A stretch of 60,124 bases of DNA from Ignavibacterium sp. Lineage in GTDB: Bacteria > Zixibacteria > MSB-5A5 > GN15 > PGXB01. Shown one piece after another: positions 34,374 to 46,774 of this stretch. The stretch lies in the NCBI GenBank assembly GCA_020724775.1, contig DYGG01000012.1, positions 1 to 60,124 on the forward strand, given 5' to 3'. A program made the translations under genes and the position numbers. Numbering within the stretch: position 1 is the first letter of the stretch; every line of letters starts with the position of its first letter. A model generated the notes under the pieces. The model did no database searches, had not been told where the DNA came from, and was given only the letters and a program-made list of their open reading frames with translations.

Positions 34374-35101
34374 TTATCTGATTATACTGGAATAAATAAT
34401 CGATGTTTCGCGAAAAAACAGTTGCCGGATAAATGCCTCTATGATATGAAGCCTCAGACTGTTTTCCCAAAGACTGAGGCTCATGAAACAATGTTGCGTT
34501 GGAGTATTGGTCTCTACGGCGGCTGGATATCCGGCGCTTTCGAAAGCGAGTTTGAGCCAGCCAATCAGTTCTTTATCAACCTGCGAGACTTCGGTCAGCC
34601 TGACTTTGTAGTTGCACATACCGCCGGGGGGGATTGCTTCCAGGCGGCCGGCCGCTTTCAGTCCTTTGACATTCAAGCCGACTTCAACGCAACTGTTGGT
34701 GGCCGGACCAATCATGGCGAATTGCTTTTTCCGGCGCAGGCTGACATACCCTTTTTTGGGGCGATTTCGAATTCGCCAAAGCCTTTGATTTGTTTCATGA
34801 GGGACTCATGAATGGGACGGAGAGCCTCTTTGGGACCGGAATAGATACCGGAGATGACATCATCTTCAGATATTGCATTCGCTTTGGCGGCCGACGCGCC
34901 GTCACTCTTGAGTACATAATGCACGAGCGTGTTGGCATTACCATACCCCATCCCGAGTTTTTCCTGAAGCATGGAACGGAGTTCGCCATGTTTGGTCAGT
35001 CCGCTATCGCGAATGATTTTTACCAGTTGCTCCAGGGTCTTGCCGGTTCTGGTCTGGATATTCTTCAGTTGGGTTTGAATAGCCTGTTCGGGAGTCGCCA
35101 T
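34374..35101 (-). pseudogene. DUF4287/DUF5655 gene interrupted by a frameshift
   Basis: Residues 1-115 of the first frame (34712-35101) match a DUF4287 opening (QLKNIQTRTGKTLEQLVKII ... KHGELRSMLQEKLGMGYGNANTLVHYVL) and lead into the DUF5655-like half, which continues in the -1 frame (34374-34715: MIGPATNSCVEVGLNVKGLKAAGRLEAIPPGGMCNYKVRL). The frames join exactly at A-AAA-AAG (34751-34757), where one missing base in the A run, or a -1 slip, restores PKKGYVSLRRKKQFAMIGPA. After the conserved end near 34530 an unrelated tail of about 50 residues runs through a hairpin, suggesting the natural stop was also lost. Pseudogene or sequence error is likeliest; programmed frameshifting is possible. Function unknown. 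Confidence 0.75.
34450..34481. repeat. Inverted repeat inside the tail of the frameshifted gene
   Basis: AGCCTCAG (34450-34457) and CTGAGGCT (34474-34481) form an 8-bp stem, extendable past one mismatch. It probably was a transcription terminator beyond the original stop of the DUF5655-like gene, now inside its extended open frame. Confidence 0.45.
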
Positions 35102-41261: not shown

Positions 41262-42494
41262 TTATTTCTTCTGATGCCTCAATTCTGCCGCCATCTCCTT
41301 TATTTCGGCCAGGTCACGCACCATCTCACTCCAACCGTACCAGAGTGCGTAATCAGGATTGGCATGAAATGCCCCCTGAAACGCTCTCATCCTGTGTTTC
41401 AAATGCATCTCAAAAAGGGTCTGCTCGATAACGGTCGGGGCATCATGAAAGGTCAATAAATCGGGGAATGGATAGGCATATTTCTCCGGTTTCGTCAAAA
41501 CGGAGTCCCGGTAGAGGTCGGCAATGACCCGAATCGCCTCGGCGAGGAGATGGTCAGCCGCCTTTATCATGCTGTCCCCCTTGGCAATTTCAGCCCGGGC
41601 AAAATTCTCGGAATGGCATTGGCTGCAGATATTCAGAAGACGAGCCCGCTCCCGCTCAAAACTTTCCTGGTCCAGGCGGGCGACATCAGCCGCCTTAACG
41701 ACCTCAAGCCGCGCTGTCGGCTGACCCTCGGGGTCAAGCACACCCAGAGCCTGAAGAATGGTAACCTGATCGACTTTCCATTGAGGGTCATCAGGCAAGG
41801 GCAGCCGTACCGCCAGAAATCCCCAGGGGGTACGAACCTCATGATTCCCCTCCGGCATATGGCAGGTCTGGCAGGTCGGCGCCGGGGTGGTTTCCGGCAG
41901 AACGCCGGATTGTCTCAACAGAAAACGAACGCCATGTTTGGAGGAAGAATACATCTCCCACTGGGGATGGTCAAACCCCATATGGCAGGTCTGGCAGGCT
42001 TGCGGTTGCTGCGCTTCCTTGACCGAGAAACTGTGACGGGTATGGCAGCCGTCGCAGGAAGCATGACCAAAAACAGAGCCTTCCGCCTTCAATTTCATAA
42101 CTTCTGATTCATCCTTAAGTCCGATTTTATGGCATCCGCCGCACCCTTTCGCCCCCTGTGTCAGGGCCATCGGGAGAGCGTGCGTGGTCGGCATGGCATT
42201 CATCGCCGCCCAGGATAAAGCATGTTTCCCTTTCCCGAATTGCGCGAATTGCACATCGTGGCATTGGGCACAGGTCTGGGCGGTGGGTGTTAGCGCCCGG
42301 GAAAAGTCCTGGGCGGTCTGATGCGCTGTCCCGTGGCAGATATCGCAGCCAACTTCGTTCTTGCTGTGAAGGCTGACCTGCCAGTCCGCCACTATATGGG
42401 GCGTTTCCTTGAGATGACAGTCAAGGCAGATATCGGCAAACGCCGCTGACGACAAAATGAAAATGAAAACAAGAGAGATTGATACTCCGGTCAT
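41262..42494 (-). CDS. Octaheme c-type cytochrome of the hydroxylamine oxidoreductase family
   Basis: Translation starts at the ATG at 42494 behind GGAGGAGTCT, for 410 residues with a signal peptide ending AFA. Eight CxxCH motifs are visible (CLDCH, CDICH, CAQCH, CGGCH, CDGCH, CQTCH, CQTCH, CSQCH). MYSSSKHGVRF matches the HAO-family YxxSxHG region. Relatives oxidise hydroxylamine or reduce nitrite and hydroxylamine. The Tyr crosslink typical of nitrifier HAO is not evident, so a reductive role like epsilonproteobacterial HAO is likelier. It neighbours the nor genes but is separated by a divergent DUF1697 gene. Confidence 0.85.
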   Translation of the reverse strand: MTGVSISLVFIFILSSAAFADICLDCHLKETPHIVADWQVSLHSKNEVGCDICHGTAHQTAQDFSRALTPTAQTCAQCHDVQFAQFGKGKHALSWAAMNAMPTTHALPMALTQGAKGCGGCHKIGLKDESEVMKLKAEGSVFGHASCDGCHTRHSFSVKEAQQPQACQTCHMGFDHPQWEMYSSSKHGVRFLLRQSGVLPETTPAPTCQTCHMPEGNHEVRTPWGFLAVRLPLPDDPQWKVDQVTILQALGVLDPEGQPTARLEVVKAADVARLDQESFERERARLLNICSQCHSENFARAEIAKGDSMIKAADHLLAEAIRVIADLYRDSVLTKPEKYAYPFPDLLTFHDAPTVIEQTLFEMHLKHRMRAFQGAFHANPDYALWYGWSEMVRDLAEIKEMAAELRHQKK

Positions 42495-43438: not shown

Positions 43439-44782
43439 CTACGCCGCCGCTATCCGCTCTGGTGCCGATTGTTTCATCTTCAAAAGGTCATAGATAATTA
43501 TCACTACGCCGACAAAGAACTCCAGCCCGCTGAATATCGCAATCTTGAACCAGAACTGCATCTGCGCTTGCGCTGTCATAAATCCCAGCCCCAGCACCCG
43601 CTCCAGATACGATTGCAGAACTCCGGCAACGCCGAACGCCAGCCCCAGAGCGAACATCGCCAGACTGGTAATCCAGAATCCCCATTTGCCGAGAGTCTGA
43701 CGGAAATGGGTGACTCCTTTCAACTGCGGGAAGGCATAATAGAAGATGGTGAAATTGAGCAGAGCGTAGGCGCCAAAGAACGCCATATGGCCATGCGAGA
43801 CCGTCACCTGACTTCCGTGAGTATAGTAGTTAATCTGCGGAAGGGTATGGATAAATCCCCAGACCCCGGCGCCGACCAGATGATAAATGGCGCATCCCGC
43901 CGCCAGAAGCCAGACCAGCGGATTTTCGATTTTCTGCTGCCGCTCTTTGACATGGCGGATGGAATCCCAGACCATCAGGATAATCGGCAACGGCTTCAGG
44001 GCGCTGAAAATCCCTCCGACCCAGAGCCAGTAGCGCGGCGCCCCGATTCAGTAATAATGATGTCCCGTGCCGGCAATACCGGTAAAAAGGAACAGCCCGA
44101 TTTCAACATAGAGCCATTTCTCCACCACTCCCCGGGGAACGCCGGTTATCCGAAGAAGAATCCAGGCGATAATCGCTCCGGTCACCAGTTCCCATGCCCC
44201 CTCTACCCAGAGATGGATAACCCACCACCAGTAGTACCAATCGATAGAAAGATTTTTGTAAAAGGGAAGTCCGAAAAGATAGAGCAGGGCAAGCATCACC
44301 GGCCCGCCCAAGAGTGTCCCTTGAATCATGGTCCAGTTTTTCGCCTTAATCATTGTGGCGGCGACATTGAAGAGAAAAATCAGAGCGCCAGCAACGATGA
44401 GTAAATCCAGTTCAAAGGGAATGTCCAGAAGCGGCTTTCCCTGAGTCCAGCCGAAAAGAAAACTGACCAGAGCGGCAACGCCGGTGCCGACCAGAATAAT
44501 CAACTGCAGATAAGCCAGTTTGGTGCTGTATAGTTCCGATTTGCTTTCTTCCGGCACCACAAAATAGGTTCCCCCCATAAAGCACAGAAGCATCCAGAGT
44601 ACCGGAAGGTTGGTATGAAAAGCGCGGGCAGTGGAGAAGGGGAAGATATCAATTAGGCTTTGCGGAAGGGTAAAAGCATAGTTGATTGCCAGCCAGAGCC
44701 CCATGAGGACCTGAAGGACGAAGAGAAGCAACGCCACCACAAAGTAAGGGTAGGCGACTCGCTGAGATTTGTACGGATTCAT
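43439..44782 (-). pseudogene. norB: Nitric oxide reductase large subunit, interrupted by in-frame TGA
   Basis: NorB reduces 2 NO to N2O at a heme b3-FeB centre in the inner membrane. Reading 44782 to 43439 gives about 447 codons in one frame, with a TGA at 44048-44050 (codon 245). Upstream: FHTNLPVLWMLLCF and HLWVEGAWELVTGAIIAW; at the break TGHHYY-TGA-IGAPRYWLWVGGIFSAL, where relatives have Trp; downstream SQVTVSHGHMAFFGAYALLNF with the remaining His ligands. So the catalytic ligands lie on both sides, and only read-through or reversion would give an active enzyme. It overlaps norC by four bases. A sequencing error is possible, but norC is also damaged. Confidence 0.85.
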
Positions 44783-45493
44783 TGCGCCTCTCCTTTCTGA
44801 CGGGCAAGAAATTCAGCCAGGGCCTCCAGATCCGCCGGAGTCATCTCCTGGTATCCCGGCATATTGGTCTGCGGATTTACCGAAGCCGGGTCATATATGT
44901 ACTGACGAATCTGCTCCGGGGTCATCCGCGTGCCGATATCATCCAGAGCCGGACCGGCATCGCCGCCGACACCGCCAATGGAATGGCACGCGATACATCC
45001 CTGTCCCTTTAAAGAGGGCCGCGCCGGGGGTCATCGCCGAGCCTCCGATAAGGCGTTTGCTTTCGGTGGTGCGACGTTTCTTGGAATCTTGCGGAGGCCA
45101 GTCTTGCGTGTCGATATCATTTACCCAGCGGAAGAAATCGACCAGGAGGTCAATTTCTGTCGGAGTCAGGTTCTGATGCGGCATCTTGCGGAAAGAATTA
45201 GCCAGTACCAGTTCCGGCTGCGCCACCACGCCGCGAATATAGTTTTCTCCGCGACGGTCATAGACACGGGTCAGGTCGGGAGCATAATAACCGCCAAACC
45301 CCAGAATGGTGTGGCAGTCATTGCAGTTTTACTTCTGAAAAACCCGCTTCCCTTCCACCACGTCATCTGAGAGACGGTCGACGTTGGTCAGGGCATGCAC
45401 CTGATTGTGAGTATCCCAGGTCAGCGCCAGAAACAGAATCGCCGAACTGAGGGCGCCGACATAGAAAATCGTTTTGGCAAGTCTTGGCGTCAT
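44779..45493 (-). pseudogene. norC: Nitric oxide reductase cytochrome c subunit with stop and frameshift
   Basis: NorC passes electrons to NorB. The ATG at 45493 (behind GGAGAGGACTGT) begins MTPRLAKTIFYVGALSSAILFLAL, then VFQK-TAA-NCNDCHTILGFGGYYAPDL; the TAA at 45329-45331 replaces the Tyr seen in relatives. A second lesion near 45004 is one extra base: the +1-corrected frame reads KGQGCIACHSIGGVGGDAGPALDDIG to the stop overlapping norB (ATGA). Two CxxCH-type sites are present (CNDCH and CIACH). Two separate lesions plus the norB TGA argue for gene decay rather than one sequencing mistake. Confidence 0.82.
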
Positions 45494-45505: not shown

Positions 45506-46120
45506 TTAATGGCAACCGTGACAACCTTGAGCACCAGATTCATCTTCTGAGACGGCTGCAAAATAATTCGGGGCATATTTTTCCACCAGGCTGTCGGCAA
45601 GAGCATGAAACTTCTCATGCTCGCCGGGGCCTGTTTGCTCTTCTTCAAAGCGCTCAAACCGCTCCCCCATTTTCTCAAGCAGTTCTGGCGGAAGATTCAT
45701 AGCGGCGGCCGGATACAGGATATTATCTTCTTTCATAATATGATTCCGCAGAAGCGCGGCATAAGAATTCGCCGCCTGCGCGATTGCCAGACGGTCTTCC
45801 CCGGTCCACTCCCCGGTCTGCTCCGCCCTCTCGCCCAGGATTCCAATCAGGCGCCGCCCTTCCTGATGCTCCATTAACATCACCGCAACCGGGCCATATT
45901 CGCGGGAGAATCCATGCTCCACCATCGTAGCGAGAAGAATATCCTCTTCTTTGCCGTGATGGCAGGAATCAGCGAAAGTCCGGATAAAGCCGACAAATTT
46001 ATTCAAATCTTCGCGGTCGACTTTTTCGCCGTCATGCACCGCCGCCACATAGTTCTCCAACGCCGCAATCACCTTTTCAATCAGGCGATGCTCATTCTGT
46101 AACATCTGTAAAGGATTCAT
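45506..46120 (-). CDS. Hemerythrin-domain protein
   Basis: The protein is 204 residues. Its four-helix hemerythrin fold is marked by NEHRLIEKVIAALENY, FADSCHHGKEEDILLATMVEHG, LMEHQEGRRLIG and LLRNHIMKEDNILYPAAAMNLP, giving the His/Glu di-iron ligands. Members include Ric/YtfE, which repairs Fe-S clusters damaged by NO. It ends GCHGCH, an unusual Cys/His tail. It sits 12 bases upstream of norC, in the same operon, which fits an NO-stress role. This gene is intact, unlike norC and norB. Confidence 0.88.
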   Translation of the reverse strand: MNPLQMLQNEHRLIEKVIAALENYVAAVHDGEKVDREDLNKFVGFIRTFADSCHHGKEEDILLATMVEHGFSREYGPVAVMLMEHQEGRRLIGILGERAEQTGEWTGEDRLAIAQAANSYAALLRNHIMKEDNILYPAAAMNLPPELLEKMGERFERFEEEQTGPGEHEKFHALADSLVEKYAPNYFAAVSEDESGAQGCHGCH

Positions 46121-46144: not shown

Positions 46145-46774
46145 TTAATGTTTATGCTCGACTTCAGGCTTTCCTGATGCTTCATGGTGTGCCGCCGGCG
46201 TGGTCAGCGCCTGATGCAGCCGCTCGACATAGTGGATAAATTCGATATAAGCGGCAACATATTCCCGGCCGGCTTCGACCGAATGCCCGGCATGCTCTCG
46301 CGTTTCCAGGGCGTGGGCGAATCTTTCATTGATGCCCTTAGTTAAAGCGGCGTTCAGCGATTGGAGAAGGGAACTGGCGGATTTTGACGTCAGCGCATCC
46401 TCCGCTTCTTCTACCCCCGGCTCCAGGGGGGTACCCGACGGTTTCAATCCGGTGTATGGCGCCCCTTCGCCTTCGCGATGCAAACGGACGAGAGTTTCAA
46501 AGAAATATCTTTGTGCTAATGATCTGGCTTCTTCACTCAGTTTGGCGACTGATATCGTCTGTTCAAAAAGGCTTCGAATCTCCGCCTCGTGCTCGGCGCC
46601 AACCCATTTCAGCACTGGAGTGACATCGCTTCTTTCAAGAGCCAGGCGGGCATCCTTGATAACCGGACCATCATATGTGTCGCAGTGCGCTGATGCCTGC
46701 GGAGTCGCCAGCAGAGCGACAAGAATCGCCAAGATAAGCGACACGCAGACCCCGGATAAATTTCGGATTAACAT
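46145..46774 (-). CDS. Exported DUF6448-family protein
   Basis: The 209-residue product has a signal peptide ending ASA-HCDTYDGPVIKDARLAL; the HCDTxDGPV opening is the signature of DUF6448. The rest is helical with several histidines (LKWVGAEHEAEI, ALETREHAGHSVEAGREYVAAYIEFIHYVERLHQAL) and a His/Glu-rich end. It is the first gene of the operon with hemerythrin and nor genes. The motif shared with the Rrf2 gene lies 35 bases upstream. A role in NO or heme handling is inferred from position only. Confidence 0.8.
   Translation of the reverse strand: MLIRNLSGVCVSLILAILVALLATPQASAHCDTYDGPVIKDARLALERSDVTPVLKWVGAEHEAEIRSLFEQTISVAKLSEEARSLAQRYFFETLVRLHREGEGAPYTGLKPSGTPLEPGVEEAEDALTSKSASSLLQSLNAALTKGINERFAHALETREHAGHSVEAGREYVAAYIEFIHYVERLHQALTTPAAHHEASGKPEVEHKH

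Follow-up and report, generated by a model that had tools for sequence, protein, structure and literature searches.

Probable recent inactivation of norC and norB, which encode a nitric oxide reductase, in an uncultivated Zixibacteria-like bacterium

The window, by which we mean the whole stretch of 60,124 nucleotides of contig DYGG01000012.1 that was analysed, belongs to a draft genome of 3.07 Mb in 87 contigs that is 96% complete. On its minus strand, between 43439 and 45493, norC followed by norB forms the 3' end of a gene cluster with the order Rrf2-DUF6448-hemerythrin-norC-norB. The norC TGA and the norB ATG overlap as ATGA, and an identical ATGA is found in the sister species. The features of the cluster are as follows.

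43439..44782, minus strand: norB, very likely a pseudogene, encoding the catalytic subunit of a cytochrome c-type nitric oxide reductase (cNOR) in 447 codons; PF00115; matches Pseudomonas aeruginosa NorB 3o0r_B at E=2.3e-109
43994..43996, minus strand: norB missense change Glu263Lys, at the position of Glu280 of P. aeruginosa cNOR in the alignment to 3o0r; Glu in 24/24 homologues and in the sister
44048..44050, minus strand: norB nonsense codon TGA at Trp245 (HHYY*IGAP), directly after the FeB ligands HH; Trp in the aligned sister DNA
44780..45493, minus strand: norC, very likely a pseudogene, encoding a two-haem NorC with an N-terminal helix and the motifs CNDCH and CIACH; the norC-norB pair is 90% identical in DNA to that of the sister, which is intact and whose NorC first domain matches P. 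aeruginosa NorC 3o0r_C at E=2.7e-24
45005..45013, minus strand: one additional base in norC, a frameshift ahead of the second haem motif CIACH; from the sister alignment
45329..45331, minus strand: norC nonsense codon TAA at Tyr55, directly before NCNDCH (VFQK*NCNDCH)
45506..46120, minus strand: intact gene for a hemerythrin-domain protein of the same cluster; PF01814; 4 nonsynonymous and 21 silent changes on the window branch
46145..46774, minus strand: intact DUF6448 gene of the same cluster; PF20046
46877..47287, minus strand: intact gene for an Rrf2-family regulator of the same cluster; TIGR00738; 97% identical to the sister

An earlier note on this DNA had placed two independent lesions in norC and one in norB, and all three are borne out by alignment to relatives. 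The norC TAA is in phase with the ATG at 45493, and the codon is TAT in the sister and encodes Tyr in 3/3 aligned relatives. The additional base, put near 45004 in the note, lies in TTTAAAGGG (45013-45005), where the sister has one base fewer; a query with the NorC of the sister gives matches in two frames that part at this point, and GQGCIACHS can be read only in the other frame after this point. The TAA thus precedes the first CXXCH and the frameshift the second, and no open frame for a membrane-anchored NorC carrying haem c is found in the window, whereas the relatives are intact. The insertion is the least certain of the lesions and could be an assembly error, as it sits among short homopolymers and the contig has a comparable indel of one base near 34750.

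A fourth lesion, probably, is the norB change Glu263Lys, which the earlier note overlooked along with the other missense decay of norB. The FeB glutamate and histidine ligands that characterise cNOR NorB are retained in the window's reading (HLWVEG and HH, from alignment to 3o0r_B and 4xyd_A), but the conserved Glu280 is replaced by Lys263. Activity and proton uptake of cNOR are reported in PMC3431322 to depend critically on Glu280 and Glu211 (P. aeruginosa numbering), and because Glu263 corresponds to the former, the predicted enzyme would very probably lack activity even with readthrough of both stops. In all, seven missense changes of the window NorB, including L60P, G67C, L161P and E263K, fall at sites where 23 or all 24 of the homologues share one residue, and the sister has 0 such sites.

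Comparison with sister genomes, which the earlier note had called for, provides the ancestral state, with one genome representing each species. The sister species (G001, same genus, contig L029) carries the cluster with its gene order unchanged and with norC and norB both open, and both genes are likewise open in two more distant relatives, G007 from the same family and G062 from the same order. Disrupted frames in the window beside intact orthologues in close relatives are one hallmark of a pseudogene. Most other members of the family are without this NorB and NorC, and the nearest NorB relatives in named genomes include Zixibacteria. Among the long open reading frames directly beside norCB in the sister no norQ or norD was recognised; NorQD is described in PMC9976466 as essential to the insertion of FeB into the cNOR of Paracoccus. 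In G007, genes for a MoxR-like ATPase and a DUF58-like protein follow norB at a distance of ~3 to 6 kb (L030:14318-17010).

Substitutions on the window branch and the sister branch were polarised with G007 and G062 as outgroups. In norB the window branch carries 14 missense changes and 1 nonsense change against 19 silent ones, and the sister branch 1 missense against 24 silent (Fisher p = 7.5e-4); omega is 0.25 on the former and 0.013 on the latter, and the corresponding branch lengths of the NorB protein tree are 0.053 and 0.0018. Relaxed selection of the kind looked for in a pseudogene is therefore seen on the window branch for norB. The excess in norC is weak (7 nonsynonymous and 6 silent changes in the window, 4 and 6 in the sister). 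For the control genes, namely hemerythrin, DUF6448, Rrf2 and a nearby hydrolase, the pooled counts are 22 nonsynonymous and 66 silent in the window and 47 and 76 in the sister, with no excess on the window branch. If neutral evolution of norB began at one moment, it would account for about 24% of the branch leading to the window, a rough estimate given how small the counts are.

Disrupted genes are otherwise scarce in this genome. In a 781 kb sample of it, on which the background rate rests, 118 open reading frames of the sister have a counterpart (126 kb), and only two of these are disrupted besides norC and norB; at norCB there are three lesions in 2 kb. The reverse comparison yielded one candidate disrupted gene in the sister. 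The first of the two disrupted genes, at 34530-35101 of the window (minus strand), is open in the sister but frameshifted here by one base near 34750-34760, where a C run beside an A run is one base shorter; it is possibly another pseudogene or an assembly error. The second, on another contig (L081:9283-10101, minus strand), resembles an alpha/beta hydrolase gene; a Trp codon within it is replaced by TGA, an internal stretch present in the sister is missing, and it looks like another pseudogene.

The NorC of this locus joins the usual anchored first domain, which matches 3o0r_C, to a second CXXCH domain. This two-haem form is general in the clade and no peculiarity of the window, because two CXXCH motifs are present in NorC at 21/22 related loci of other genomes. 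The proteins have about 230-240 amino acids (L056-L077, L029:6736-7449, L030:9435-10142) and occur in Zixibacteria, Calditrichota, Myxococcota, Armatimonadota, Spirochaetota and Methylomirabilota and in the archaeon Hydrothermarchaeum. The tree of these reductases mixes phyla, which suggests horizontal transfer. No description of a two-haem NorC turned up in the literature searched, mainly papers available without subscription.

Against the solved P. aeruginosa NorCB (PDB 3o0r), NorB aligns over nearly its full length with the glutamates of HLWVEGxWE and the His ligands in place, and the first NorC domain aligns as well (E values as listed above). The differences are that both subunits are disrupted in the window, that the equivalent of Glu280 is Lys, and that the second cytochrome domain of the clade's NorC lies outside the match to the solved protein. 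A parallel in gene loss is offered by Neisseria meningitidis, in which genes of the NO pathway are likewise disrupted beside intact relatives: among 85 carriage isolates, aniA alone was disrupted or deleted in 23 and both aniA and norB in 1 (PMC6538176). The meningococcal loss affects mostly the nitrite reductase AniA, whereas the Zixibacteria-like lineage of the window, which is uncultivated, has lost both cNOR subunits; the meningococcal enzyme is a qNOR, according to PMC5826923, and in the window lineage nirK was not found and no nirS scored above the cut-off.

Neither a further NorB-like nor a further NorC gene was found in the 96% complete genome, and the one additional haem-copper oxidase that it encodes, on contig C71, is of the cytochrome oxidase type. 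In this genome and in that of the sister, nirK was not found and nirS had no match above the cut-off. NrfA had no match over the cut-off in the window's own genome, a search for Hcp found none, and a search for nosZ gave no match there or in control genomes. A multihaem cytochrome c gene (PF13447, PF13435) at 41262-42494 of the window, minus strand, is 94% identical in the sister; its closest NCBIfam model is hydrazine dehydrogenase, with a score far under the cut-off. Both genomes retain an intact flavodiiron-type protein with an ODP domain, for which a role in NO reduction is putative. Of the earlier proposal that NO reduction was recently lost, the part that concerns cNOR is supported by the intact sister and outgroup copies, by the norB missense excess including the Glu280 equivalent and by the failure to find another NOR; its extension to all NO reduction goes too far in view of the flavodiiron-type protein.

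The same note held that NO-stress sensing and repair remain. The three upstream frames are indeed open, but a role in NO-stress sensing is putative: the Rrf2 protein scores 50.5 bits against the NsrR equivalog cut-off of 182 in NCBIfam, and with the YtfE/RIC models the hemerythrin protein reaches 26.3 bits against a cut-off of 254 and 22.7 bits against one of 204.7. The Rrf2-DUF6448-hemerythrin neighbours, together with the failure to find nirK or a nirS match above the cut-off, suggest that the cluster served NO detoxification rather than denitrification. It is conceivable, if on balance rather doubtful, that Rrf2, DUF6448 and hemerythrin serve a function independent of NO reduction, for example that DUF6448 and hemerythrin sense or buffer NO, and that the lineage lost its only NO reductase while selection maintained the other genes of an NO-responsive cluster.

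The reading that we hold with high confidence is that norCB is a recently inactivated pseudogene pair, broken in this lineage by point mutations and probably one insertion, after which norB came under relaxed selection. The ancestor shared with the sister species would have had a working cytochrome c-type nitric oxide reductase from norC and norB. After the split, the norC TAA, the norB TGA and norB Glu263Lys would have inactivated it, with a probable contribution from the insertion of one base into norC; norB would then have gathered missense changes while the upstream genes stayed open, hemerythrin and Rrf2 under clear constraint. The loss may be fixed in the population, and other factors, perhaps the flavodiiron-type protein, may now handle NO. 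That the lesions are instead sequencing or assembly errors, or a mixed-strain consensus masking an intact norCB in the real population, is improbable; the window is part of one contig of an 87-contig draft and two of the apparent indels on that contig lie in short homopolymers, but errors would also strike silent sites and neighbouring genes, and the ~14 amino-acid changes of norB come with no matching silent rise over the sister and with no such excess in the adjacent hemerythrin or Rrf2 gene, nor are there more than a few lesions in the 126 kb compared.

Less likely still is that reductase activity alone was lost and a truncated NorC or NorB fragment keeps another role. It would accord with the smaller number of missense changes in norC than in norB, but the NorC stop precedes the first haem motif and no haem-bearing NorC could arise from the normal start. 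A working, expressed enzyme produced by recoding, with TGA read as Trp and a programmed frameshift, has a negligible chance of being correct. The TGA does stand at a Trp codon and the alpha/beta hydrolase offers a second change of W to TGA, but that gene also lacks its internal stretch; recoding would demand readthrough of both TAA and TGA plus the frameshift, and it would yield a protein with Lys in place of a critical Glu. Stop codons at the ends of neighbouring genes are normal, TAA and TAG and in one case TGA, which speaks against recoding. Reassignment of TGA to Trp was likewise rejected.

Inactivation of norCB is ordinary gene loss, an event of a known kind. It places the loss of a capacity to produce N2O on a branch within an uncultivated lineage, and it carries a caution for marker-gene surveys, as norB in a metagenome does not equate to NO reduction and PF00115 still scores 215 bits here. 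The intact sister and the window species form a matched pair in which the role of the remaining cluster may be tested.
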